The position numbers and the translations under genes are program-made. Of a stretch of DNA of 24,009 bases, positions 4,014 to 22,190 are shown one piece after another (the first letter of the stretch is position 1; the number at the start of each line of letters is the position of its first letter). Origin of the DNA: Geosiphon pyriformis (Eukaryota; Glomeromycota; Glomeromycetes; Archaeosporales; Geosiphonaceae); contig JAAOMT010000240.1 of assembly GCA_016748015.1 (NCBI GenBank), positions 1-24,009 of the forward strand, given 5' to 3'. The notes below the pieces were generated by a model, which did no database searches, was not told where the DNA came from, and worked only from the letters and a program-made list of their open reading frames with translations.

Positions 4014-4016
4014 TTT

Positions 4017-4152
4017 TTTTTTTTTTTTTTTATATTTTAACGAGTGAGGTCCAAACGCGACCTAATGCTATACATCATACAAATGATCTAAACTAGGTGC
4101 AAATCATGCGCTTTCTACACGTGACCAGCCACTCGGACCAGTCAGGACTACA
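4017..4152 (-). other. LINE copy A 3'UTR with hairpin and conserved terminal motif
   Basis: It follows the ORF2 stop. A short hairpin (GTGG, loop CTGG, TCAC; 4121-4132) sits about 20 bases after the stop and recurs in copies C and D. The terminal motif (4038-4070, + strand CGAGTGAGGTCCAAAC) is shared with copies B, C and D and with the tail-only fragments. Poly(T) at 4014-4031 is the poly(A) tail. This is the region where the reverse transcriptase would begin target-primed copying. Confidence 0.65.
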
Positions 4153-7100
4153 CTATACACTTATATGCACAGAAACCGAATCTCCAATACCTGAAAAAAA
4201 TGAACAAAATTTACGAAACCCAAAACCAACACCAAATGCCTCAGCCACCCCCAGCAATCTGACCACACCAGCCGAAAGCACCTTAGGCAAACCAGAAACC
4301 AAAGCAGGAATGGAGCCATCACTTGGAATCAAACCATGCTTCTCCATAAATGCTCGGTGTCTAGCCTGGACCAACCAAACATCATCCCGAAATGCTAAAC
4401 AAAACTCATGCACAAAGCTCACAATTCTCTTAGCACCCTCCCTAGAATCTTTAAAAACCAAGATAGACTCACGAAATTATTCATCAAAAACAAAACTCTT
4501 ACACAGAGCAACACTAACTCCAACCTCAGAAACACAAGAAGCTAAGGCCTGTAAGACACATGAAGAAGAGCGAGAAAGGCCAGAAAGAGCCTCCCAAGTT
4601 GAAGCATATGCGCCCAACAAACAAGCACGGCCAATGGCATCCTGAGGACATGAAAAGACATGATCTGAGGTCTCAACATCACCACAAAACAGACAGACCA
4701 CACTGGGATAACTCCTGTCATATAAACGCTTGCGCACAGCAACAGAAAGCCGATGATGGAAAGCCTTTATAAAGTAAGTATGACATCCCGCCATGCGCAT
4801 GCTGGTAAAACCGGATGCCAAGTAAGAATTGGGGTGCCACACCATAGAAGACATAGACCAATTGACATCAGCATGCAAACTATCATCCATAACACAAGAA
4901 CCCACTCCAATCTTCCAACGAGCTCGATGAAACGACCAGAAAACATCATGAACAAAGTATCTAGAATTACCAGAAACCGCCATGCCACCAGCACATAGAA
5001 AATGTTCACTGACTAAATGAGGTAGGCACCAAGCAGAGCAAGCAGCACCTTTGGCAAGCGCATCAGCATGCTTGTTGCCTGAGACACCTGAATGATTTTT
5101 CATCTTAACCCAATTCACATCCAAATTCTTTTGACAAATGACAGTGGCAATGTGACGATGCTCAATCCAACAGCGGTTTCTGAAATCTAGACAAACCAGT
5201 GAAGACTCCGATCTACATGCATCTAAAGCAGCCTGGCTATCCGAGAACAAGTCAATCGAATGAGAAAAAGGAACACACTCAAGGGCCAAAGCTATGGCCT
5301 GCAGTTCCGTCAGAGTAGAAGAAACCAAACCAGACACCCCAACACCCAAACCCAAGTTAATGTCCTCAAAAAAAGCGGCAGCACCTGCTCTCATGTTAGC
5401 AGTGCCCAGACCAGAAAAAGACCCATCTGTATACACAGAAAAATGGGCAGCATCAATAGTTGGCAAAGTGTCACGAATCACACCAAAATTATGAGAAAGA
5501 CGAATATCAGACACAGCTTGACCATCTACCAAAGAAGAACTTGAGGAGAGAGGAACAACACCACCAAGAAAGCGAATGGAAAGATCAAACCAGAAAGGAA
5601 CTGGGCCACGAGGGTCTACCCTCTTCCAACGTTTGAAGGTACCCCAACTGAAAACATCACTATTACAGTCACGAAGCTGTTCCACGAAAGCAATTCCATA
5701 ATGCCTGAGCGAAAAAATGCACTTGAAAAAACAGGATTCACCAAGAACCAAAGACATAGGAGTACCACACCGATGACGAAAAGCACAATCCACAGGGCCT
5801 CCCAAAGACAAATCACACCCAGAAAAAATGCGAACCACACCCACCAAAAAATTATCCGAGGGACTAATACCAACACGAACCGGAAACAACAAAGGATGAC
5901 GAGGATGCCAGCTGAGAACCTGGAGGTCATGAGACCTATGAGAAAACAAGCGACCCAAGACACCAGTAGAATTTGCAAAAGCAACAATAGAGGCCGATTT
6001 ACTCTCAGCCTGTATCTGTTCGAAAGTTTTTAAATTGTACAAAGAGGAGTAATGAAGTGCATCACTGGGGAAATCACGTGGCAACCCAGACTTGGACTTT
6101 AAGACCTTGCGAACCAGAGCATCCCATTTACTACAAACACCAACAGAAACGAAACTGAACTGAATTCTGTAGCTGATGATAGGAAAAAAAACTGCAGACA
6201 CCAAATATGCACACTGTTTGTCCGAAATTGCCTTTCTTAAAACAAGATTCACAAAGAACCGTACATCAGCCTAGGCCTTAGCCAAGCTGGGCTTTGAAAG
6301 ACCCTCAGAAGACAAAAAAATACCCAAATAGCGATAAGATTCCCCTCTCTTGGCAATGGAAATAGGTGCACCACTGATAGTCAAATGAGGATCCAACACC
6401 CAGCAATTGATGGGAATGGCCACCGTTTTGTCATTGTTTATAGAAATATTGTTAAACCTAAAAAACTTGCTAGCAACATCAAGGATGCGTTGTGTAGCAG
6501 CCTGGCTGCTACCAACCCAGATAGTATCATCAACAAAAGCGCCGGCAGCAAGAAACGAAGACAGCCCAGCTCGAAGATCCACCTGGCCAGTCCTTGATAT
6601 GAAATGAGAATTCAACCTGTAGCCATACACACTATCCTGTCTCTTGACCTCACACAAAAGTGAATCATAAAAAATATGCCAGAGAAGAGGCGAGAAAACT
6701 TCTCCTTGATCCAGCCCATCGTAAACACAATACCCATCAGTCAAGCCAAAGTCGGTCATCACTTTGTTGACACGACCATTGTGAATACTGCCAAAAAATC
6801 TAATAAACCTGTCACACATTTTGATCCTGACTAGACTCCTTCTAAGATGTTTCCAACCAACCGAGTTATAAGCCTTGCGCATGTCCTGTAAAACCAGCCA
6901 AAGTTCATGGTTCTTTTCCAAGACATCCTCAACCACAGAACCGATAGCAAAAATGGGAGATTGAGTCATCATACCCTTCAAAACTGAAAAATTGTCCCCA
7001 TGAAAAACATCAAAAGTGCTGCAAGCCAGAGAGATCCTATCCAAAAGAATCTTGGAAAGAATCTTGTGGGCCGTTTCAATTAAAGCTATAAGATAGGTGT

Positions 7101-8841
7101 TCGTGAGAACTCCTTCTCATTCATATGGTTTAAGAATTATCGAAATCCAAGCTTCTCTCCAAGGCCCAGGGACTGACTTGCCAACCAAACAGAAATTCAA
7201 AAGCACCAAAAGCATATCCAAAACAGATTTGTCACAATGTTTCCATAATTCATTGGAGATACCAGAAAGACCAGCCACTTTTCCATCAAGAAGATCCTTA
7301 ACAACAGCTAACAACTCATCAAAACTAATCAAACACATGACATCAGAGAAAGCACCATCGAATACATAATCCAGAGGCCGATATTGACGAGCCCAATCCT
7401 TAGATAAGTCAGACACCACCTCACGTTTTCTGGTCCATCCCTCCATAATTTTGTCCACCTTAGACTTAACCAAATCAGGCTCTAAAATCAACTCATCTTC
7501 TACTACCAAATGATCCAGGACCACCTTGCGAAGAGGACACTCCAAAACACTCCTAATGGTGTGACCCTTGTTCAGCTCAAAACTCTCCATTCTCTTACTA
7601 ATAGCTTGCTTGATCGAGGATTCCTCAGTGTGCTTGGATTCCACTAACTTGAAAGAGTGGTATGATTTTCTAGCTTTGGCCAGTGCAAAGCAAATAAGAT
7701 CAAAATTAGAACCTGAAAGAAACAGAGACTTAACCACCGATGCACCAGGAGAGTTGAGTCTGTGCCACACCTCCAACAAAGAAGCAAAACCATCACTAGA
7801 AGCCAAACGTGAAGTCTTAACCAACTTAGAAACCAGCAGCTCCAGCTTGTGAAACCTAGAAGAAATCTTGGTGAACATGCCATCAAAACCTTTGAACCAT
7901 TTTTTCTTAAATGTACCACCTGCTGAAAGAACCATAATCTTGCGAACAATGTCCCACATAGCGTCCACATCTGAAAATTTTACTGCCACACTGAAAGCAT
8001 CTGAGAACATAGAGACATTAGCAGCTGAGGCATCCCTAAACTCCAACCACTTAGCTTTATTGGCACTTTTAACGTCAAACTTCCAACAATTTTTATTCGC
8101 TTGCTTGCAAAAAGAATTCAAACACGTATCCAAGAGCCCACCCAGACCCAAATTCACTGAAACAGCTTGATGGTCTGTGTCAAAATGCTCACTGACATTC
8201 AAAACCTCACGACATACTATTGCATTAACAAGACTTGAGGAGACAAACACGTAATCAATTGTTTTCTTAACGCCCCTAGAATTCTCCCAAGTGGGCATTT
8301 TTGCAGCCGGGCTGCCAACTAAAGAATTGACCAGACCCAAATCAAAGCATCTTTTGAAACTTGCACTTTTATAAGAGCTGTTTTCATTAAAATTGCCACC
8401 GAGAATGATGAAAGAAGATTCGTTGACAGTCTTTGCAATAAGAGAATTGATTTCACCAGCTTGAGAAAACCGAACCACCGAAGAAGTACCAGCATAAAGC
8501 CCCAAAATTGACACAAAAAGTTTACTCTTAAAAAGTAATTTAATGGAAAGAAGCCGACCAGGCACCTCAGAAACCTTGCACACATGATGAGCCAAAAAAA
8601 CGTCCATGATAACAGCAACACCCGCACCCAAGTGACCAGAGTCCAAACCAGAAGTGAACACTCGAACACCATCAAACTTGTCTGTAATCCACGGACAAAC
8701 CCTACTCTTTAATTTCGTTTCAGTAATGATAGAGACTAAATTGTTCATTTCCTTATGCCACCTAATAATGTCTTCTTGCTTAGCGGGATTGTTCATGTCC
8801 CTGACATTGCATGTAGCAACTTTCCAGACTAAACTGCTCAT
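4153..8841 (-). pseudogene. LINE copy A ORF2 (endonuclease, reverse transcriptase, RNase H), three nonsense codons
   Basis: 1,562 codons plus TAG at 4153-4155. Residues 1 to about 225 are the APE-type endonuclease (TCNVR; ITETKL with the metal-binding Glu; GGNFN where GGDFN is expected; DTDHQAV at the end). The RT spans about 500-870, with LQDMRKAYNSV (651-661), LDQGEVFSPLLW (710-721) and the catalytic FVDD (769-772). RNase H at about 1135-1265 keeps YTDGS, TELQ, SDSQ and HAD acidic residues. A CX2CX7HX3C finger lies at 4648-4695. Breaks: TGA at codon 575 (7117-7119, from TGG), TAG at 6271-6273 (from CAG) and TAA at 4477-4479 (from TGG). I chose the ATG at 8841 because copy B has it at the same place; the frame is also open 27 codons further upstream inside ORF1. 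Confidence 0.9.
8838..8841 (-). promoter_or_regulatory. ATGA stop-start overlap of ORF1 and ORF2 in copy A
   Basis: The ORF1 stop TGA (8838-8840) overlaps the ORF2 start ATG (8839-8841) in ATGA. Copy B has the same arrangement at 20220-20223. Such overlaps in other two-ORF retrotransposons couple ORF2 translation to termination of ORF1 by reinitiation. That mechanism is an inference here. Confidence 0.75.
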
Positions 8842-10631
8842 TGAGTAAGAGGTAGAAATACCAAAAGCGCACCTAAACTGTCCACTTTGGCCGAAAGGCC
8901 CAGAACCGTTTCCATTAGACACTTCATGCTGTCTTCCAGCTTAGACACTGAAGACATATTAAAAGACACTGCTCCCACAACATTCCCACCACTAGTGGAC
9001 ACACTTGAACCCTCACTCATCACTACATCTGCCCCTTGATCCTGTGATGAAGGGGTCACCAACGGCTGACATCCAGGGCTAGGCTGGGAAACCATTGGCC
9101 CGAGTGTATCCAACCTCTTAGCCAGTTTACCAACTTGCTCTGCGAGGCTGGCGAGACTGTGCTCAAGAGCGGCAAACCTATCGTTAACTTCCATCGTAAC
9201 CGGTTGGAACAGCTTCATCTCTGAAGAGGAGCCATTTGTTACCACAACATTCTGACTAGAGAGGGGGAACGAAAAAGACCCGCGAACAACCTTTGCCCAA
9301 GAGAGACCACCAAAAGAGACTGGATGGGCAACTGGAGCTGAGCGTTTGGCATAAATGGTTGCCAGTCTGCTTTTATCCGTATCTGAGAAAACCCTACGCA
9401 GTAAACTACTAAAAGACAATTTTCCACCAACTGCACAACCCAATGACGTGTGACCCAATTTCTCACACTTGGTGCATCTAGCAGAAATGAGATAAGACCA
9501 GCAGAGATTGGTGTTCCTGAGTACTGGCGTGGTTCCCACAGCAGCATCCAATGATTCAGCAGAGTCGAAACAAACAACAGCACATCTGGCCCAAACATAC
9601 GTAACAGAATGACAATCAATGATGCATGTTTTCTCACCCACAGATCTAACAAAGTCCCAGATATCATGAGCATTGGTTCCCATCAGCAATGTATAGAGCA
9701 GCACCCTATGTTGGTCTCTTATATCCCACGCTTTCTTGTCTGAATCAGCCCTAGCCATACGCATAGTATCTTTCCTGATTAAGATGGACCACTCAGCTGC
9801 AGCCAAATCAGCCTGATCCGATCGTTTGAATTCCACTACTGTCTTCTGCTACAGTCTGATTAACTGCATCTTGATCATCCTAATAACTCCAAACTCGGAT
9901 AGCGCAGCACGCACAGCCTCAGCCGATGTTCCAACTGGAATTTCTTTCACGACCACAGCCCGATCTGATCACCCAGATGCTTTTTTGAGATCGGCGTTTA
10001 CTAAGATCTTCACATTCACAGCTTTATCAGTAGCTTTCATTAGTCTCGATTCAGAAGTGAATGTCGCCCTGATGATCTCTGAGAATTTTGAGGGGGTAGA
10101 TGCCCCCCCAAAACCATTGATTCCAGAAAACAACTTCCTCACCATCACAAGTTTTTTCTGAGAAGATTTGCCGGCCACTTTATCCAAGCCAATATCCAAT
10201 GCGAATGATTTCCTGACTGAAATATTGACCAAATTTCTCACAGAAGTAGGGAGCTTAAGAGGAACATCTAAGAGAACACCATCATTACTACCATCTTTTG
10301 AGAAGTCAATTTTCTCCAATGGCTTGCCCAACGCCTTTTTGGTTTTAACCTTCGAACTTGTGGGTGTCTGATCATAATCTCCACCAGCCAGAGCTCCACC
10401 TTCACCATAATCAAAGCTGGTTTCTTCCACCAGACACTCCTCTTCCATATTAACACTTTCAGACTTAGTAGTGTCCCCAGTCTTCGAATCCCATGAACAA
10501 ACACCAGGAACTTCAGCAGCAACCCTTCTATTATCAACACCCTCTGCCAACACACCTCCCTTCCTCTTTTTCCTTGATGCAACCGCTTTAAAACCACTCT
10601 CAAAACCAGAAACTTTAGCAGTCTTTTTCAT
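8838..10631 (-). pseudogene. LINE copy A ORF1 (two RRM-like domains, CCHC knuckle, coiled coil), two nonsense codons
   Basis: 597 codons plus stop. Residues 1-220 are a charged, probably disordered N-terminus with an FSGINGFGGAST motif near 180. An RRM-like domain follows (about 225-295; RNP2-like AVVVKEIPVG, RNP1-like KTVVEFKRSD), then a second (about 310-365; LLYTLLMG and RCAVVCFDSAE). A CX2CX4HX4C zinc knuckle lies at about 386-399 (9435-9476). Heptad-like helices begin at DRFAALEHSLASLAEQVGKL. Breaks: TGA at codon 221 (9969-9971, from CGA) and TAG at codon 261 (9849-9851, from TGG). The role would be RNA binding and RNP assembly. The ATG at 10631 matches the internal Met in copy B, but an upstream open frame may extend the protein. 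Confidence 0.85.
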
Positions 10632-10786
10632 AACAGCAATAACAAAGCCAACAGTGGCCTCGTAATCGAAAAATGGTTTTGATTTATCGTACTGAATGGT
10701 AAAAAACTTCTTTCAAAAAAACTTTTGACTTTTTTTTGGGAATTTTGGACAAAGGAGAGAAAAAAGTTTTTTTACTTTTAATTTTC
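10632..10786 (-). other. LINE copy A 5'UTR, possibly coding
   Basis: Similar to the same region of copy B up to about 10780. Read as protein it gives FTIQYD, SKPF and FDYEATVG segments also seen in B, which has one extra codon (CTG) there. A six-T run where B has five breaks the frame further upstream. An internal promoter would be expected here in a LINE, but I cannot point to one. Confidence 0.5.
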
Positions 10787-10864
10787 CTAAATTTAGTTTA
10801 AATTTTGCTAATTCTGATAAAATAAATATATAATAATATAATATTATTTATTAAACAAAATAAT

Positions 10865-11262
10865 TATTAATTATGTAAGTAATCAAATTAGAGTTTTGAA
10901 TTGTTTTAAGTTTTAAATTATTATTAATTATATAAATAATCAAGTTGGAATTTTGAATTATCACAAGTTTTAAATTATTATTGATCTTATAAATAATTAA
11001 GTCAAAGTTTTAAATTGTTCCAAGTTTTAAATTATTATTAATTGTATAAGTAATCAAATTGAAGTTTCAAATTGTTCTAAATTCTAAATTATTATTGATT
11101 ATATAAGTAATTAAGTTAGAATTTTGAATTGTTTAAGTTCTAAATTATTATTAATTATATGAATAATTAAATCAAAGTTTTAAATTATTCTAAGTTTTAA
11201 ATTATTATTAATTATGTAAATAATTAAGTTAAATTTTTAAATTAATTTTATCTAATTAAAGT
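10865..11262. repeat. 57-bp AT-rich minisatellite, seven copies
   Basis: TATTAATT or TATTGATT unit starts fall at 10865, 10922, 10979, 11036, 11093, 11149 and 11206, a step of 57 with one 56. Each unit runs through a TAAATAATTAAGT-like segment and ends in AAGTTTTAAATTAT. The last copy is partial. Units differ mainly by A/G or C/T changes. It lies about 75 bp beyond the 5' end of LINE copy A. 57 is a multiple of three, and on the minus strand one frame reads through several units. Confidence 0.85.
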
Positions 11263-11923
11263 TCTAATCATTTTTTTTTTGCTTTTTAATTTTATTATAT
11301 CTAATAGTAAAAAGCATACTATTTTTTTAATATATATTCTGTAAAATTATAAGAATATTATACTTTATGATAAGCTTATAGTGCTTAATTAGTATTATAC
11401 AAATGATAAAAACCAATTAAAAACTACAAAATACTTTAAAAAAAACAATTTTCTATACATAAAACAGCTTCTAGTTTTAGCTTAAATCAAAAATAAACCA
11501 AATTTTTGTGCATAAACAAATATAATACATAATTTAACTAACAAATATATAAACATAATATATAATTCTAACTTTAATAAAACATTTGTTATTTTTGTTC
11601 AAAAGATAAAATTGTGTAAAATAACACTTACTAAAAATATAATTTAAGCTGTTGGCATAAAGTTTTAGAATTATTTATTGTTTTAAGACATATTATCATT
11701 GCTATTATTTTTGTTATGTATTAGATTTTTTTAATAATAATATTAATAATATTTATGTAATTAACCAACTTTAAACAATATATTTAATTTATAAAACATA
11801 AAAAAATGTTTTAAATAAAACAATTATTCATTGTTAACACAAAATTAGTATTTTTTTAATTAATATAAATAACAACTTTTAGAATAAACTGCAAACTTGA
11901 AAATAATAATTAATTATAATTAA

Positions 11924-12283
11924 AACTTAATATTAAAAAAAATTAAAAATTACTATAAAAAATTTAATTACATACAGTTAAATTATATATATTTATTAAT
12001 TAAAGAGTTGATAAATCTATTTAAAAAAAATAATACAATTATTTTAGAACCTTTAAATAATAATAAAATTGCAAATTATATTATAATAAATTGTAAAACA
12101 AAACATAATAGCTTTAATAAAGAACAAAAAGTACAAAAAATAATAAGTATTAAAAATATATTAATTGTTATTATAAATTTTAAACAGTTTATTAAGCTTG
12201 AAAATAACAAGAAATTTTATAATATAGTTAGTAAGTTTGTTTATATTAAATATATACTTTATAAAAGAATGCAAAATAAATAA
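11924..12283 (+). other. 120-codon stop-free frame inside the AT desert, unrecognised
   Basis: The frame is open from just after a TAA at 11921-11923 to the TAA at 12281-12283. It has no ATG near its beginning; the first usable alternative start is a TTG at 12008. The product is rich in Asn, Lys, Ile and Tyr, as any frame would be at this composition. It still contains a CKTKHNSFNKEQK segment and a C-terminal basic YKRMQNK. In sequence this rich in TAA, a run of this length is unexpected by chance. It could be a remnant of a transposon gene or an organelle-derived insert. No motif supports either. Confidence 0.2.
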
Positions 12284-12557
12284 AAACAAATAATTTTTAC
12301 AAGTTTTTTTAATATTGCATGAACTATTTAAAGATTTTTATAAGAATATACAAATAAATTTATTTTTTAATAATATTATATCTATTTTTATTATATATAT
12401 ACTATATATATTTAAACCTAAAAAATTTTATAATTTGTAATAATCTATAATAATTTGTATTTATTAAGAGTATAAGTTATTTTAGATTTGACTGTAATAT
12501 TAATAAATTTATAATTAGATTAAATTTAAAAGTTGTTAAAATTAAAACTGAATTTAA

Positions 12558-12560
12558 ATA

Positions 12561-12617
<57 letters not shown>
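12558..12617. repeat. TAA-then-TTA microsatellite palindrome
   Basis: About nine TAA units (12558-12585) are followed directly by about eleven TTA units (12585-12617), making a near-perfect inverted repeat of about 60 bp that could fold into a hairpin. LINE copy B in this window ends in a TAA-type tail, so it could be two LINE tails meeting head-on; slippage is the simpler explanation. Confidence 0.85.
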
Positions 12618-12618
<1 letters not shown>

Positions 12619-13062
12619 AATTTTGTTATTAATAAAAAAACATATATTTAAATAATAATTTTATGAAAATTACAGTTATTTAATATTAAATCTTATATTC
12701 AATTAAGTAATTTAATAAAAAACAATAATTTATTAGTTGTTTTTATGCAAAAAATGACTTTTTAAAATAAGTTTTTATATTATATTTAATTTAGTTTAGC
12801 TTTAACTAATTTAAATAACTAGTTATATATAAAAAACACATGAATTATAATTATTAAGATTTTATATTTTAGTTATAATTAGTAATTAAATTATATTTTA
12901 TTAAAACAATAAAAAAAATTTAAAAATTAATAATTATAATTATAAATTTAATAAAATAAGTAAATAAATTTATTTTTTTGACAAAAAAATTATTAATTAA
13001 ATTTTTCAATAATTATATATTTTTACTAAAAATTTTAATTGTTTTTTAAAATATTAATATTA

Positions 13063-13905
13063 AATTTAGGCCTGTCTCTAGAAATGTTCATCATGTTGTC
13101 AAAAATTTATTCAATGCTGTTTATTCTGTTGGTTGGGAGGCCAAATATGTTGGTAAAGTTATTGGTGCAGAGCTTTGTGGCCATTTTGATAAGACCAAGA
13201 TTTTTTGTGTTTAATATTCTAATAGCAAAATTAGGTCTGACTATACTTGTACTGCATCAATAGTGCTTCAGTCATACTTTATGAAGACATTTTACCATTA
13301 CTTGTCAGTGGCCAAAAAAAAAAGATGTATAATCTGAGATATCCAAGTATTGCTTGCATTCAGTGTGGTTTGATAGAAGACTCTAATCACATATTTTCTT
13401 GTGTTTATGATATTAATGTTCAGAAAACTTTATTGTCTAATGCTACTTTGGAATAAAATGTATTGTTGAGCACTTTTGTCAATAGGAACATGATTGCTAA
13501 TTCACTGAATGAGGCCACTTTTTTCTTCAACTTATTCACAGTACTGGCTAAGAGTTTTGTGTTAAAGAGTTGAGTGGTTAATATGGTAGGCTGTTTGGGT
13601 GCTAATTCTGGTGAAGGTGCATTGGTTGTCAATTTTGTTTATCATTTTACTGAAAGTTACAGATCTGCCATTTGGTTTTCTGCAGCTAAGTTAAGATCTT
13701 TTTATGAAAAGCATTACCTCTTGTCATATAACAGTTTTTTTTTCCTTCAGCATTTAATGTGTTTTTCTTGTGATCTGCTAGAATGATCTGAGATTTTGGT
13801 TTCAGGTTAGGTATCCATGTATGCTTTGAGTTGTATTCATGTCTGGCCAAATTAGATTTTGGTTTCTTGTATAATATTTCTGTGATAAAAAATCTAAGTG
13901 TGTAG
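13063..13905 (+). pseudogene. LINE copy D ORF2 C-terminal remnant
   Basis: SRNVHHVVKNLFNAVYSVGW matches the SGNSRYFVHDV region of copy A. SYFMKTFYHYLSV is followed by YNLRYPS and the finger CIQCGLIEDSNHIFSC (CX2CX7HX3C, all ligands present). Breaks: a TAA after IFCV, a frameshift at the ten-A run 13314-13323, TAA after SNATLE, and TGA at 13571-13573 where relatives have a Trp codon. The end NLSV plus TAG matches the HISV/NISV ends of A and C. Confidence 0.8.
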
Positions 13906-14038
13906 TGCTGTTTTAATTGGCCCAAGTGACTGATCACATGTAGAAAAAGCATGAACCATGCTTAATTTAGATTTTGTTTTGTTTTTATGTATTTAAGTAG
14001 TAGTTGGGCTATATTTGTAAAACTTAATAAAAAAAAAA
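13063..14038 (+). mobile_element. LINE copy D: 5'-truncated 3' end of a diverged non-LTR element, plus strand
   Basis: This is the only LINE fragment over 900 bp on the plus strand. It starts abruptly inside the post-RNase H part of ORF2 and runs through the terminal finger, the stop (TAG 13903-13905), a 3'UTR with the conserved hairpin (13926-13937) and the terminal motif (13998-14030), to a poly(A) tail ending near 14038. A 5' truncation of this type is the usual result of incomplete reverse transcription. It is more diverged from A and B than they are from each other. Confidence 0.85.
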
Positions 14039-14190
14039 TTTATTATTAAATTTATTATTAATAAAAACTATTAATATATTTATTTTTAAAGTATTTTTTT
14101 ATGTTTTAAACTATATATGTTATTAAACTTATAATAAAATATTCAATTCTGTATTAATAATTTTTATATTATTACTTAATATTTTATATT

Positions 14191-14280
14191 TAATGAGTAA
14201 AATCCAACTGCTATCTAGTATACAGAATCAAACCAAGTAATTTCAACTAAATGCAATTTATGTATTGGCTACATATAATT
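14191..14280 (-). mobile_element. Tail-only LINE fragment E (3'UTR end, minus strand)
   Basis: TAATGAGTAAAATCCAACTG, then CTATCTAGTATAC, matches the terminal motif of copies B (15451) and C (22492). About 60 more bases of weaker 3'UTR similarity continue to a GGCTACATATAA near 14280. It carries no coding sequence and is either an extreme 5' truncation or a short element that shares the LINE tail. Confidence 0.65.
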
Positions 14281-14303
14281 ATTATTTAATAATAAAAGTT
14301 TTT

Positions 14304-14352
14304 GTATGCTAGATAGTAATTGGGCCATACTTGTTAAATATTAATAATAATA
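14304..14352 (+). mobile_element. Tail-only LINE fragment F (3' terminus, plus strand)
   Basis: GTATGCTAGATAGTAATTGG followed by GCCATACTTGTTAAATATTAATAATAATA is the plus-strand form of the same terminal motif with a TAA tail. With fragment E (14191-14223) it forms an inverted repeat with arms of about 33 bp and an 80-bp centre. About 50 bp of LINE is recognisable. Confidence 0.6.
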
Positions 14353-15431
14353 AAATTTATTTAAATTTAATATAATTTTTAATATGTTAATTAAAATTGC
14401 AAAATTTAAACAAAAAATTTTTTTTTATTAATTTGTAATAATTAATTAATTAATTTTTTGTTTTTTTAATAATTTAAGAAAATTTTTAAATTAATTTATT
14501 TTTTTTGGTAAATTAACTTATTTTTATTATGTGATATTATTTATATTATAGTTTTATATTCAACTATAAAAATATATTAATAAGATTATAATCAAAAAAC
14601 TCTAAAATAAACTTAATAAATTTTCTTTTAATTTTATAAATAATTATGTTTTTTTATAAAATTATAAATTATATTTAGATAATATTACTATTTTCAGAAA
14701 TATTATATAGTTTTTATAAAATAATAATATAAAATCAAAATACTTTTAAGAATATATAATTATAAAACAATGTTTTACTACTAATAGTATTTGTATTATC
14801 TTTAAATATAATTAAAAAAATAATATATAATGTTTTTAAAAGACTTGTATTAGAATATTAACAACAAAAAACAGCAATTTAATAAACAGACATATTTTTA
14901 AAAAATAAATTCAATTAATTCAAATTTTAATCATATTTTTTGTAATAAAAATTTTTTTAATAAATTTAAAAATGTTTTTTAAATATTTTAAATTATTTTA
15001 AACAAAATATTGCTTATTAAAAATTATTTATTTAATAAAATTTATATTAATTTAAAATTATTAAAAATAGTTTTTTTTAAATTCAAGTATATAAATATAA
15101 AATTTGTAAGAAACAAGACTATAATATTTAAATCTGTTTATAATAAAGTATTTTTTAATTATAAAACACTATAAATTATTTAAGACATAATAAAAAATTA
15201 AATATATAATTTATATTTAATTTTATATAAAAAAAAGTTATTTTTTATTTTAATTAAACTAATATTTATTAGAATTACTAATAAATAAATATTAAAATAT
15301 TATATATATTAATATTATATATTGTAATTAAGTCGATTTAACAAAAAAAACAAATTAATTTAGCAATTTTCTAAATAAAACTTAGCATAATATTTATGAC
15401 AAAAAATATAATATATAATTTAATAAATATT
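14353..15431. other. Extremely AT-rich desert, nothing recognised
   Basis: A/T homopolymers and TAA/TTA mixtures throughout. I found no ORF, RNA gene or tandem array with a clear period. It ends at the TAA-type tail of LINE copy B. Confidence 0.6.
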
Positions 15432-15565
15432 TTTTATTATTATTATTATTTAATGAGCAAGGTCCAAACACTACCTAGGACTATATATCAAAGAAATGAT
15501 TTAAATTAGGTGTGAATTATGTATTTTCCACACATAACCAGCCACTCGAGCCAGTCAGAACAACA
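15432..15565 (-). other. LINE copy B 3'UTR
   Basis: Terminal motif at 15451-15482 (+ strand TAATGAGCAAGGTCCAAAC), TAA-type tail, and a decayed version of the post-stop hairpin at 15534-15545 (GTGG, CTGG, TTAT), where the 3' strand has C-to-T changes. Confidence 0.6.
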
Positions 15566-18500
15566 CTACACAATTATATTAACTGAAACCGGATCACCAA
15601 TACCTGAAAAAAAAGAGCAAGATTTGCGAAAGCCAAAACGGACGCCAAAAGCTTCAGTAACACCAAGCAGCTTAACCACGTCATCTGAGAATCTTGATGC
15701 CAAACTAGAAAGTGAGACGGGAACCGAGCCATCCACTGAGATCAGGCCATTTTTTTCCATGTATACATGATGCTTAGCATGGACCAACCAAATGTTATCC
15801 CTGAAAGTGACACAAATAGAGCACACAAAATCAGCAGCTTTAATGCCAGCAATTTTGGGATCATGGAAAATGGAAACAGTCTCCTGAAGCCATTCTTTGA
15901 AAACAAAACTCTTGCAAAGAGCTGAAAACACCAGAAAATCTGAAGCACAGGTTGACAGCAGCTGTAAAATGCTTGAAAAAGGGAGGAAAAGACCAGAAAG
16001 CACCATCCAAGAAGACATACAGGATTCCAAAACCCGATGACAAGCCGCATCATCAATTATACAAGAAAACACATAATCAGACACCTCCACTTCACCACAA
16101 TACAAACACAAAACACTAGGGTAACATTTATCATAAACGCGCTTTTGAACAGCCATGGAAAGCTGATGGTGTAAAGCTTTTATGAGGTAAGTACGAATAT
16201 CAGCAATGCACCTGCTGGTGAAACCAGTTGCCATATGCAAATCAGAGTGCCAAACTCTGAAAGAGACAAGCTAATCGACATCTGAGTGCAAATCACTAGC
16301 TAGAAACCCAAAACTGAAACCGACCTCCCAGCATGCCTGACAAACAGCACAAAAAACATCTTGAACAAAGTGTCTAGAATTACCAGAAACAATACCACCA
16401 TCCACCAACAAAAAATGTTCATCCACATAAGGAGGGAGAAGCCAAACAGAAAGAGCTGCAGCATCAGCAAAGCTATCAACACAATCATTTCCCAATACAC
16501 CAGAGTGGCCCTTAATCTTGTGCCAGCTAACCCTCAAATTTTTCCTGTGGATAATATTCCTAATATGCTGGCACTCAACTCAATACTGATTACAAAAGTC
16601 AGGATACATCAAGTTCACCTCTGACTTGTAAGCATCTAAAGCTGCCTGGCTATCTGAAAACAGGCAAACAGAATAATCTACAGACACACACTCCAGAGCC
16701 AACGCTATAGCTTGCAACTCCACCAAAGTAAACGACATCAAACCCTGAACACAGACACCCAAACCCAAGTTAATGTCCTCAAAAAAGACAGCAGCCCTGG
16801 CCCTACAACCAGCCATGCCCAAATTTTTTACCGACCCATCTGTATACACAGACAAACTATCAGTACTAACCCAAAAAAGATAATTACATACAGACACAAA
16901 ATCATCAAAACCACGAATATCCACAGAGCCAACACCACCCGAAGCCAAAGGAGAGGAAGGCACACCATTGAGAAATACAACAGAGTGCTCGAACCACTCA
17001 GGAACCGGGCCACGAGAATCCAGTTTCTTCCACCACTTAAAGGTGTACCAATCAAAGATATCCCCACAACGATCCCAAAGCTGATCCACAAAGGCAATGC
17101 CATAATGCCGAAGAGAAGGCAAGTACTTGAAAAACAAGGATTCACTCAAAACAGCAGATATGGACACCCCATCACGAAACCGAAAAGAGCTAGCCAAAGA
17201 GCCACCTAAAGACAAATTGCACCCAAGAAGAATGCATACCATTCCTGACAAGAAATTATTGGAAACACTAACATGGATACAAGCCGGTAAACTCAATGAA
17301 TAAACGGAGCACCAACACAAAACTTGCAAGTCATGAGATCTGTGACTAAACAATTGACCCAGAACCCTACAGGAGTTTGCAAAACTAATAAGTAAAGCAA
17401 CCTTGCTTTCAGACTGACATTGTGAGAAGGACTTCAAACCATAAAAAGAAGAATAATGAATTGTGTCACTAGGAAAATTGAGAGGAAGACCAGATTTAAG
17501 TTTCAAACCTTTGCGAATTAGAGTATCTTACTTGTTGCACACACTGACAGGGATAAAGCTGAACTGTATTCTGTAGCTGACTATAGAATGGAGAACTGCC
17601 AACACCAGGTACAAGAACTGCTTATCTGAAACTGTTTTCTTTAGAACCAAATTGCTGAAAAAACGAACATCCAAATGTGCCTTAGCCAAACTAGGCTTAG
17701 AAAAACCATCAGATGAGAGAAAGATACCAAGATACCAATGAAATTCGCCTTTTTTGGCTATGGAAATGGGTAAACCACTAATAAAAAGAGATGGATTGCT
17801 GATCCTGCTATTAATAGGAATGGCCACAGTTTTGTCATTGTTGATTGAAATGTCATTAATTCGAGAATATGTTGAGTAGCAGTCTGATTGCTGCCAACCC
17901 AAATCGTGTCATTGACAAAGACCCCAGCAGCAAAAAAAGTAGAAAACTCAGTCTGAGATTCAACACAACCATTCCTAGAGACAAAATGAGAATTGAGTCT
18001 ATACCCACACACACTCTCCTGATGCTTGACCTCACACAAAAGAAGATCATAAAATATGCGCCAAAGAAGAGGGGAAAAAACTTCTCCTTGGTCCAACCTA
18101 TTATGTACACTATAACCATCAGTTAAACCGAAATCCATCATAACCCGATTGGTCCGATTTCTATGAATATTACCAAAAAAACGAATAAACTTGCTATACA
18201 TTTTGATCCTGACCAAACACTTCTCGAGATGCTCCCATCTAACAGAGTCATACGCTTTTCGCATATCCTGCAGCACCAGCCAGAGCTCCCGGTTCTTTTC
18301 CAAAGCATCTTCAACAACCAAACCAATAGCAAAAATAGGAGTTTGGGTAGTCGTATCCTTCAAAACTGAAAAATTATTCCCATGAAGAACATCATAAGCA
18401 CTGCATGCCAGCAATATCCTGTTGGAGAGAATTTTAGAGAGGATCTTATGAGCCATCTCAATCAAGGCTATAAGTCTGGTATTTGTGAGAACACCTTCTC

Positions 18501-20223
18501 ATTCATATGGTTTAGGGATCATCGAAACCCAAGCTTCCCTTTAAGGACTAGGCACAGACTTATGAGACAGACAAGAATTCAGAAGCACCAAGAGCATATC
18601 CAGAACAGACCTATCACTATGCATCCACAGCTCATTTGAAATATCTGAAAGACCAGTAGCCTTGCCAACAGACAAATCAGAAACCACGCCAAACAATTCC
18701 AAAAACTCAATTGGCTGCATTACACCAGAAAAAGCCTCATCAAAAACGTAATCCAATGGCCAATACTGACGGTGCCACACATCAGGAACATTGGGAACCA
18801 CTCTATGCTTTCTAGTCCATCTTTTCATGATTTCATCCACTCTTGATCTCACAAGACCAGGTTCCATAACCAGCTCATCGTCCACAACTAAGTGATCCAA
18901 GACAACCTTATGGGAAGGGCACTCCAGAATGCTCCGAATAGTGTGACTCTTGTTCAGCTCAAAACTTTCCATCCTCTTATAGATTGCCGATTTGATTTGA
19001 GATTCCTCTACATGCTTTGATTCTGCCATTTTAAGTGAACAATAAGTTTTTTTGATCTTGGAAAGAGCTGACTGAACAGTATCAAAAGGTGAGCTGGAGA
19101 GAAAGAGAGACCTAACCACAAAGACGTTATCATTATCAAGAGAACTCCAGACTTCCAACAGTGAAATGAATTTGTTACGACAAATCGACTGAGAAGCTTT
19201 AACCAGCTTTGATATCAAAAGTTCTAACTTATGAAATTTGGATGATTCCTTAGTGAAGACACCATCATAGTCCTTAAACCATTTCTTCTTGAATACCTCA
19301 TTAGCTGAAAGAACCATTATCTTGTGAACAATGTCCCACATCGCATCCAAATCTGAGAATCACTGGGAGGCAATAAAATTATCAGAAAACATGGTGGCAT
19401 TAGCTGCTATAGCACCCTTGAACTTGTTCCATTTCACGTTATTAGCACCCTTAAAATTAAACTTCCAACAATTTCTATTTGTCTGTTTGCAAAGAGAGTT
19501 CAATTGTATGTCCAATAAACCACCTAAACCCAAAGACATAGAAACAGCCTGATGGTCCGTTTTGAAATGTTCACCAACATCTGTGACACTGTGGTGTACT
19601 ATCGCATTAACTAAATTTGAAGAAACTAATACGTAGTTAATTGTTTTCTTAATACTCCTAGAGTTCACCCAAGTAAGCAATTTCACAGCTGGGCTTCCTA
19701 TCAAAGAATTTGCCAGACCCAAATTAAGGCACTTCCTAAAACTTGCACATTTACGAGAACCATCTTTATTGAAATTGCCACCAAAAACAATGAAAGAAGA
19801 TTCATTGACAGCCTTCACAATGAGAGAGTTGATCTTACCAGCCTGAGAGAACCAAACTGCTGGAGAAGCACCAGCATAAAGCCCCAGAATCAACACAGAA
19901 AGTTTACCCTTGAAAAGTAATTTAACAGACAGAAGCTGACCAGGCACCTCAGAAATCTTGCACACATAACAAGCCAAAGAAACGTCCATGATAACAGCAA
20001 CACCTGCACCCAAGTGACCAGAGTCTGAACCAGAAGTGAACACTCGGACACCATCAAACTTATCTGCAATCCATGGACGAACCTTATTTCTTAATTTTGT
20101 TTCAGTAACAATAGAGACCAAATTGTTCATTTCCTTATGCCACCTAATAACGTCCTTCTGCTTAGCAGGATTGTTTATGCTTCTGACATTGCACATAGCA
20201 ACTTTCCAGACCAAACTGTTCAT
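15566..20223 (-). pseudogene. LINE copy B ORF2, 22-nt deletion and six nonsense codons
   Basis: It carries the same domains as copy A: endonuclease (GGNFN again instead of GGDFN, codon at 19774-19776), RT, RNase H (YTDGS, VELQ and SDSQ kept) and terminal finger. The RT catalytic box is FVND instead of FVDD (Asn codon 17911-17913), and the finger has Tyr for His (16073-16075). Nonsense codons: TGA 19360-19362 (from CGA), TAA 18541-18543, TGA 18499-18501 (codon 575, same as A), TAA 17528-17530, TGA 16580-16582 and TAG 16271-16273, the last five all at Trp codons. A deletion of about 22 nt near 17866 shifts the frame between RT motifs C and D. It cannot encode a working enzyme. Confidence 0.88.
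20220..20223 (-). promoter_or_regulatory. ATGA stop-start overlap of ORF1 and ORF2 in copy B
   Basis: ORF1 stop TGA (20220-20222) and ORF2 start ATG (20221-20223) share ATGA, as in copy A. The context CTCAATGA is also the same. Confidence 0.75.
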
Positions 20224-22012
20224 TGAGTAAGGGGTAAAGACACCGAGCGCGCACCTATACTATCCACTTTGGCCAAAAAGTCCAGAACCATTTCTATTAG
20301 ACACCTTATGCTGTCTTCCAGCTTAGACACTGAAGACATATCGAAAGACACCACTCCCACAACAGTCCCACCACTAGTAGACACACCTGAGCCCTCACTC
20401 ATCACTACATCCGCCCCTTGATCCTGTGATAAAGGGGTCACCAATGGCTAACATCCAGGGCTAGGCTGGGGAACCATTGGCCTGAGTGCATCCAACCTCT
20501 TAGCCAGCTTACCAACTTGCTCCGCGAGGCAGGCGAGACTGCGCTCAAGAGTGGCGAACCTATTGTTGACTTCCATCATAACCAGCAGGGATAGCTTCAT
20601 CTCCGAAGAGGAGCCATTATTTACCAAAATCTTCTGACTAGAAAGAGGGAGCAAAGAAGACCTGTGAGCAACCTTTGCCCAAGAGAGACCACCAAAAGAG
20701 ACCGGACGAGCAACTGGAGCCGAGCATTTGGCATAAATGGCCACCAGCCTGCTTTTATCTGTGTCCGAGAAAGCCCTATGCAGTGAATTACTAGAAGAAA
20801 ACTTCCTGCCAACTACACAACCCAATGACATATAACCCAACTTCTCACACTTGGCGCATTTAGCAGAAATGAGATGAGACCAGTGGAGATTGGTGTTTCT
20901 AAGTACTGGCATGGTTTCCACAGCAGCATCCAATGATTCAGCAGAGTCGAAGCAAACAACAGCACACCTGGCCCAAACATACGTAACAGAATGACAATTA
21001 ATAATGCATGTTTTCCCATTTATAGATTTAACAAAATACCAGATATTGTGAGCATTAGTCTCCATTGACAATGTGTAAAGCAGCGCCCTATGTCAATCCC
21101 TTGCATCTCATGCCTCTTTGTCTGAATTAGCCCTGGCCACATGTACAGCATTTTTTCCAATTAGAATGGACCACTCAGCTGCGACCAAATCAGCCTAATC
21201 TGGTTGCTCGAATTCTATTACTGCCTTCTGCCACAGCCCAATTAACTGCATCTTGATCGCCTTAATAACTCCAAACTCAGATAGCGCAGTACACACAGTC
21301 TTAGCCGATGTTTTAATTGGAATTTTTTTTATGACCACAGCCCAATTTGATCACCCAGATGATTTTTTGAGATTGGTGTTTACTAGGATCTTCACACTTA
21401 CAGCCTTATCAGTAGCTTTCATTAGACTCGATTCAGAAGTGAACATCGCTTTGATGATCACTGAGAATTTTGAGGGGATAGATGCCCCTCCAAAACCATT
21501 GATTCCAGAAAATAATTTCCTCACCACCACAAGCTTTTCCTGAGAAAAATTGCCAGCCACCTTATCCAAGCCAATATCTAATGCAAATAACTTCTTGACT
21601 GAAACATTGACCAAGTTTTTCAAAGAAGAGGGAGCTCAAGAGGAGCATCCGAAAGAATACTATCACCATCACTCTTCTTTGAAAAATTAATCTTTCCTAA
21701 TAGCTTGCCTAATGTCTTCTTGGTTTTGACTTTTGAACTCATGGGTGTTTGATCATGATTCCTACCAGCCAGAGCACCATCTTCACCAAAATCAAAGCTG
21801 GTTTCCTCCACCAGACACTCCTCTTCCATATCAATACTCTCAGACTCAGTAGTGTCCCCAGTTTCTGAATCCCATGAACGGCTCTCTTGGACTTTAGAAG
21901 CCACTTTTTCACCACTGGAACCATCTTCCAAAACACCATCCCTTCTCTTCTTTCTCGACAAGACCATCTCAAAACCATCACCAGAACTAGAACTCTTAGC
22001 AGCATTCTTCAT
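20220..22012 (-). pseudogene. LINE copy B ORF1, one frameshift and five nonsense codons
   Basis: The Met at 22012 (MKNAAKSS) aligns with the ORF1 start of copy A. The frame is also open upstream to an ATG at 22183. Length is 1,793 nt against 1,794 in A, the difference being a one-base deletion near 21623. Nonsense codons: TGA 21351-21353 (codon 221, same as A), TAG 21195-21197 (from CAG), TGA 21108-21110 (from TGG), TGA 21093-21095 and TAG 20448-20450 (from CAG). The zinc knuckle reads CAKCEKLGYMSLGC, so its His is now Tyr and metal binding should be lost. It would have been the RNA-binding protein of the element. Confidence 0.85.
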
Positions 22013-22190
22013 GATAGCAGTATATGGGCCAACAGTGGCCTTGTAATCGAACAGAAATGGTTTAGAGATATCGTACTGAATGGTAAAAACTTCTTTCAAA
22101 AAAAACTTTTTAGACTTTTTTTTGGGATTTGTGAATAAATGAGAGAAAGAAGTTTTTTTATTATTTCCAAGAAGTTTTTTCATAAATATT

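Follow-up and report, generated by a model that had tools for sequence, protein, structure and literature searches.

Fungal systems close to the case described here are known from several lineages. In Microbotryum, decay of the CpG type has been ascribed to the deamination of methylcytosine (PMC4352252), and in Zymoseptoria tritici enzymatic help in the conversion, linked to dim2, has been suggested (PMC8016269). In Rhizophagus irregularis, a possible relative of the present host, transposons are reported to be methylated (PMC8647823) and 32.5-49.5% of cytosines carry the mark (PMC8298701), which by our own inference is far above what CpG sites could supply. The stretch of DNA considered here (24,009 nucleotides, hereafter the window) carries a full-length non-LTR (long terminal repeat) retrotransposon, a long interspersed nuclear element (LINE) of about 6.77 kb on the minus strand at 10785-4016, designated copy A. 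Together with its relatives in the genome surveyed (124.7 Mb, 406 contigs), it has been altered almost exclusively by C:G to T:A substitution, most often at CpG and to a large extent in all other cytosine contexts.

The copies fetched for comparison were the best-scoring among the matches listed, so they stand for the closest relatives rather than for a random draw. These were the best 18 of 39 for A, the best 14 of 39 for copy B (a related LINE of the window), the best 8 of 41 rows for a DDE_1 transposon (D), the best 19 of 39 for an integrase-bearing element (G) and 40 of 146 matches for kinase genes. One of the 18 A copies is cut by a contig end. The polarity of changes was taken from the column states of the alignment. 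A core of 15 A copies was used after leaving out the more diverged L011, L014, L016 and L018; a "clean" set of 11, additionally without L002, L009, L013 and L017, was picked after viewing the per-copy table.

Compared with the 18 other copies, A showed transition to transversion ratios (ts:tv) from 290:6 to 693:108, with 434:16 for L007, one of the nearest. Over the 105 pairs of the core, the means were 428 transitions, 16 transversions and 3.4 gaps per 6356 bases. Changes from C:G to T:A made up 3886 of 4162 (93%), next to 151 A to G and T to C changes and 125 transversions. Both strands were mutated (C 0.093, G 0.077 per site); the difference follows by our own arithmetic from the larger CpG share of C. 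Among the 11 closest copies, every pair is 5.9-7.0% transitions apart, giving a star-like arrangement. Within any one context, the mutation rate differs little between synonymous, missense, nonsense and untranslated sites. Most changes in A therefore arose after insertion and without selection, and a role of selection in shaping the spectrum, which was also considered, is not seen. In A, neither clustering nor strand coordination of neighbouring changes was seen (same-strand fraction 0.575 vs. 0.561 +/- 0.013 in 200 permutations), and adjacent double changes were not in excess (40 seen, 44 expected).

An earlier note on this DNA had offered a choice between repeat-induced point mutation (RIP), expected to favour CpA, and deamination of methylcytosine, expected to favour CpG, and had proposed a tabulation by dinucleotide. 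The tabulation proved discriminating. In the core, rates per site per copy were 24.1% for CpG (1924/7988), 4.8% for CpA (701/14508), 6.0% for CpC (673/11267) and 4.7% for CpT (586/12573), that is, 0.241 for CpG vs. 0.051 in all other contexts. CpA is thus not preferred in A, its rate of 0.048 being no better than that of CpC (0.060) or CpT (0.047), and classical RIP is therefore not indicated; of the two options, the CpG excess favours deamination. The choice itself turned out to be too narrow, because the context-classified changes outside CpG number 1960 of 3884 in A and 476 of 592 in G. With half to 80% of changes placed there, CpG deamination alone is not sufficient either. Outside CpG, the rate in A depends on the 5' base (TpC 7.7%, CpC 5.4%, GpC 3.8%, ApC 3.0%). 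A 5' pyrimidine doubles the C-to-T rate in all groups, the ratio of pyrimidine-C to purine-C being 1.95 in A, 1.95 in B, 2.31 in D and 2.01 in G, and neither of the two options predicts this preference. The rank of CpG over TpC over the rest was stable over polarity thresholds of 0.2-0.7, while the CpG rate dropped from 24.7% to 20.2%. In A, the trinucleotides TCG and ACG had rates of 0.229 and 0.277. The non-CpG C-to-T rate was 40 times the per-site transversion rate in A and 75 times in G.

The same spectrum is found in the other transposon groups. C:G to T:A accounts for 93% of changes in B, for which the earlier note had described the same bias, for 88% in D (643 C-to-T, 40 A-to-G-type and 47 transversions in nine copies of 1.5 kb) and for 95% in G (592, 11 and 18 in 20 copies of 838 bases). 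CpG is the top context in all four groups, with rates of 0.241 in A, 0.375 in B, 0.319 in D and 0.322 in G. Furthermore, for the 12 non-CpG trinucleotides, every one of the six pairs of groups shows correlated rates (rho 0.61-0.93, p at most 0.036). The simplest reading is a single process with a single signature across the four transposon groups. B pairs are 8.4-13.9% transitions apart and, unlike A, not star-like; polarity is less certain in B and DDE_1, neither of which is star-like. The note's proposal of a mutator acting on this multi-copy family by transitions alone is borne out.

In contrast, the duplicated genes examined are spared by the C-to-T process. One pair consists of a C5-methyltransferase-like gene and a duplicate, apparently broken, that lies 32 kb from it. 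Over 1100 bases, the two are separated by 54 transitions, 21 transversions and 6 gaps (ts:tv 2.6), and their CpG observed-to-expected ratios (o/e) are 0.93 and 0.99. Compared with this pair, the ts:tv of 11 LINE copies differs at a Fisher p of 1.8e-15, so the transition bias noted earlier for A goes beyond chance. Four methyltransferase gene loci have CpG o/e of 0.81-1.03. The kinase profile gave 146 matches from 597 candidates in the genome, an abundance that recalls arbuscular mycorrhizal fungi; among the 40 used, the 14 nearest pairs (93-95% identical, some overlapping) range in ts:tv from 11:23 to 25:15, about 1:1 in total. Kinase CpG o/e is 0.77, as calculated from fragments, and the third-position GC content is 0.249. 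The DNA 1-2 kb from the aligned stretch of the DDE_1 copies has a CpG o/e of 0.58-1.07 (pooled 0.80) vs. 0.15-0.57 in the copies themselves, the copy being lower in nine of nine cases.

Two side observations concern these gene controls. The methyltransferase-like gene, its apparently broken duplicate and a DDE_1 transposon between them occupy C318:788280-822500 (L019, L051, L043). Near kinase pairs such as L087/L088 and L054/L060 show 30 and 32 differences, of which only 0 (among 81 sites) and 2 (among 77) fall on fourfold sites, and transversions are about equal to transitions. The pattern may point to diversifying selection or to conversion.

The dose of mutation is nearly even within A. Per copy of the core, CpG rates of 0.215-0.277 and TpC rates of 0.063-0.089 are fitted by one common rate (p 0.46 and p 0.75), and in the other contexts the dose varies somewhat (p 0.005). 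Eight full-length close copies carry 240-274 changes each (mean 256, variance 112; these eight totals and the "other changes" of each DDE_1 copy were entered by hand). The A doses are 0.241 for CpG, 0.077 for TpC and 0.041 for other contexts, with 0.0013 transversions per base. For B, compared over the piece 18600-20600 with 14 other copies (15 copies, 2 kb), the values are 0.375, 0.148, 0.096 and 0.0021. B has thus received 1.6 to 2.4 times the dose of A by context and 1.6 times the transversions per base, the latter from small counts. The higher dose in the more diverged group favours continual accumulation rather than a single event.

The earlier note had further argued from the lack of frameshifts in A, and this argument is weak. 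Gaps relative to transversions amount to 3.4:16 in A, similar to 6:21 in the gene duplicate, and are higher in DDE_1, whose pairs have 2 to 11 gaps vs. 4 to 19 transversions. Suppression of indels was considered and is unsupported, with 0.21 gaps per transversion in A, 0.17 in B and 0.12 in G vs. 0.29 in the gene duplicate (105 pairs each in A and B, 190 in G). Zero frameshifts in A is not unusual, as 7 of the 19 LINE copies lack indels in the open reading frames (ORFs); of the 19, five are truncated or have large gaps. The A copies are young, with C-to-T changes inflated, and the scarcity of indels reflects this youth.

Copy A (4016-10785, minus strand) is delimited by the points near 10785 and 4016 at which the homology of most fetched genomic copies begins or stops, and it contains domains of a reverse transcriptase and an RNase H. 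On the minus strand, ORF1 (10631-8838, 1794 bases) and ORF2 (8841-4153, 4689 bases) are each multiples of 3 and stay in a single frame apart from stops, so the coordinates and the stop count of the earlier note are borne out. In ORF2, RVT_1 (PF00078, 61.7 bits) and RNase_H (PF00075, 44.4 bits) exceed the Pfam cut-offs, and Exo_endo_phos_2 (PF14529), the candidate for an APE-type endonuclease domain, scores 19.8 bits, under its cut-off of 27.4; this part is endonuclease-like. A Pfam scan of two pieces of ORF1 gave no match. The start of ORF2 and the stop of ORF1 overlap as ATGA at 8841-8838, which could serve coupled termination and reinitiation. Just upstream of the 5' end of copy A, at 10858-11243, lies a 57-bp tandem repeat of 6.8 copies, outside the homology common to the other LINE copies. 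Copy B, of the more diverged group, occupies 15430-22160 on the minus strand. The AT-rich DNA between the two (10786-15420) has a GC content of 0.153 and almost no CpG remaining (o/e 0.04).

Copy A has exactly five internal stops, and the 19 LINE copies, with the truncated ones included, have 2 to 11 in frame. In ORF1 they are TGA at 9969-9971, in CpG context, and TAG at 9849-9851; in ORF2 they are TGA at 7117-7119, TAG at 6271-6273 and TAA at 4477-4479, the last with two changed bases. The earlier tally of the six changed bases (three CpA, two CpC and one CpG) is correct. Its statement that relatives have sense codons at these positions holds for four of them, with a sense codon in 15/16 of the other copies with letters there at 9849, 17/18 at 7117, 17/18 at 6271 and 17/17 at 4477. 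Among the copies read, A alone carries the exact stop codons found at 9849, 7117 and 4477, and it has the one at 6271 in common with one of 18 others. At 9969, the statement fails, with a sense codon in only 8 of 16 other copies, the same stop in seven and a different stop in one; this stop is a hot CpG site or is partly inherited. The earlier note had named findings that would speak against its reading, namely transversions and indels in balance or stops already present in relatives; neither was seen, with a partial exception at the 9969 stop. The first interpretation is partly supported, and the observation itself is confirmed and is larger than the window alone could show.

The genes that could underlie such a process were sought in the same genome. 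PF00145 gave 10 matches on six contigs. The C355 locus L020 combines PF00145 with BAH domains; its best match in the PDB is 9baq/9bap, labelled there only as DNA (cytosine-5-)-methyltransferase, which we take to be DIM-2. The ORF of another PF00145 locus is closest to DNMT1. For uracil-DNA glycosylase, the first search of the UDG family returned one weak match, which looks TDG/MUG-like by its motif. This single match suggested loss of the enzyme, a possibility disfavoured by four adjacent collinear matches to the ung model, three of them at E 2e-8 or better and none over the whole-protein cut-off, from which a UNG gene is likely to be present. Chitin_synth_1 had two matches in the genome (270 and 258 bits) and none in 14 prokaryote control genomes, which suggests that the host is a fungus. 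Part of the rDNA locus of the genome reads N.

The explanation that we find rather probable is methylation of transposon cytosines whatever their context, followed by continual deamination to thymine. The mark would be densest at CpG and partial at the remaining sites of the transposon copies. Methylcytosine would turn into thymine continually after insertion and on both strands, the copies gathering almost only C:G to T:A changes, and the duplicated genes examined would escape targeting and keep their ordinary spectrum. The substrate would be 5-methylcytosine, methyltransferases of the DIM-2 or DNMT1 type are candidate writers, and the conversion would be a deamination, either passive or enzyme-assisted. 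The CpG peak, the presence on both strands, the independence of events and the targeting of transposons fit 5-methylcytosine deamination; the large non-CpG part requires methylation, or other targeting, of all cytosine contexts.

Several results weigh against this explanation. Outside CpG, the C-to-T rate is 30 to 75 times that of transversions per site and 15 to 77 times the A-to-G rate, and so high a rate would need heavy non-CpG methylation or enzymatic help. To our knowledge, a twofold 5'-pyrimidine preference is not a mark of 5-methylcytosine deamination. The DDE_1 dose covers a sevenfold range (22-164 per copy, heterogeneity p 6e-5) that other changes do not track (rho 0.00) and that a plain clock does not predict; exposure may differ between these copies, and the CpG content of the flanks, considered as a cause, had no significant effect (rho -0.39, p 0.29). 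Single DDE_1 flank pieces range from 0.00 to 1.41 in CpG o/e. The flanks of family A are CpG-poor (pooled 0.38), several of the pieces being LINE, so that D alone offers an indication that the process is limited to the element itself. Finally, the gene controls are few, being limited to a single pair of duplicates and a single family of paralogues that is under selection.

Among the rivals, an enzyme-driven mutator, which would be linked to a methyltransferase, would actively convert C to T in repeats of vegetatively growing cells and would have a CpG and 5'-pyrimidine preference of its own, is possible though doubtful. It would account for the very high non-CpG rate and for the trinucleotide preference common to the four groups, and a DIM-2-like candidate gene is present. 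In the Z. tritici experiment, C-to-T changes exceeded 95% of all mutations and methylated regions likewise accounted for more than 95% (PMC8016269), with which the C-to-T share and the limitation to repeats seen here agree. That mutator acts at CA in over 98% of cases, whereas CpA here is no better than CpC or CpT, and active conversion is not evident in any result here. RIP proper, a homology-sensing and RID-dependent event of the sexual cycle, appears improbable. It shares with the present case the C:G to T:A changes on both strands, the multi-copy DNA, the nonsense codons and the few indels, and the uneven dose among DDE_1 copies would suit it. Retention of RID has been reported for arbuscular mycorrhizal fungi (PMC8298701), which is relevant if the host is one of them. 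On the other side, RIP is cited as undetected in the glomeromycete Gigaspora margarita (PMC8647823). RIP is also countered by the missing CpA preference, by the near-equal doses across A copies and by the genes: the 1.1-kb duplicate, 93% identical with gaps left aside, and the kinase pairs keep ordinary spectra, and therefore duplicated DNA as such is not targeted.

The two remaining rivals are far less probable. A genome-wide mutation bias towards AT, for example after loss of uracil repair, with transposons merely free of selection, is very unlikely, even though the spacer GC of 0.15, the single weak UDG match and the low third-position GC of the kinases agree with it; UNG is likely present, the apparently broken gene duplicate keeps its ts:tv of 2.6 and CpG o/e of 0.99, and the DNA 1-2 kb from the DDE_1 copies keeps its pooled CpG o/e of 0.80. 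Still less credence is given to a cytidine deaminase acting on single strands (APOBEC-like) or to ultraviolet damage at dipyrimidines. Either would explain the preference for TpC and CpC (ratio 1.95-2.31 in A, B, D and G), but in A strand-coordinated clusters are missing and adjacent doubles are not in excess, CpG is the top context and the gene controls are spared.

If targeted methylation with deamination is the true explanation, transposon ages derived from distances are inflated, and landscapes of Kimura distance turn recent bursts into old ones. The 11 closest A copies stand at about 4.0% from column states; by our own arithmetic, this distance would shrink to about 0.25% with a C-to-T rate equal to that of A-to-G. 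The signature of CpG followed by YpC is then a concrete one to be sought in methylomes and mutation-accumulation lines. If the host is a glomeromycete or another early-diverging fungus, it allows a test of transposon mutation as a defence in such fungi; in one open library, no title or start of an abstract on a transposon C-to-T spectrum in glomeromycetes was found. A bolder proposal, which we hold only tentatively and think unlikely, is an active methyltransferase-dependent mutator working on transposons in clonal growth. This would amount to RIP without sex, with a CpG and pyrimidine-C signature and outside Dikarya, and could kill a new insertion in the time that ordinary mutation takes to alter about 0.1-0.3% of the bases of that insertion.

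In comparison with known systems, the RIP of Neurospora and other Pezizomycotina resembles the present case in the C:G to T:A changes on both strands, the multi-copy DNA, the nonsense codons and the few other changes. It differs in that here CpA is not preferred, the duplicated genes examined are spared and the dose is near-equal across A copies. The Masc2-like CpG decay of basidiomycetes (Microbotryum and, weakly, Melampsora and Puccinia; PMC4352252) likewise favours CpG, whereas here half to 80% of changes lie outside it and the Microbotryum site TCG is not favoured. With the dim2 mitotic mutator of Z. tritici (PMC8016269), the common features are C-to-T changes at over 90% (88% in D), the repeats as targets and a DIM-2-like candidate; in Z. 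tritici over 98% of changes fall at CA and CG is not raised, while here CpG is highest and CpA ordinary. Rhizophagus irregularis is similar in its methylated transposons, high total 5-methylcytosine, several methyltransferase classes and high-copy kinase genes (PMC8647823, PMC8298701).

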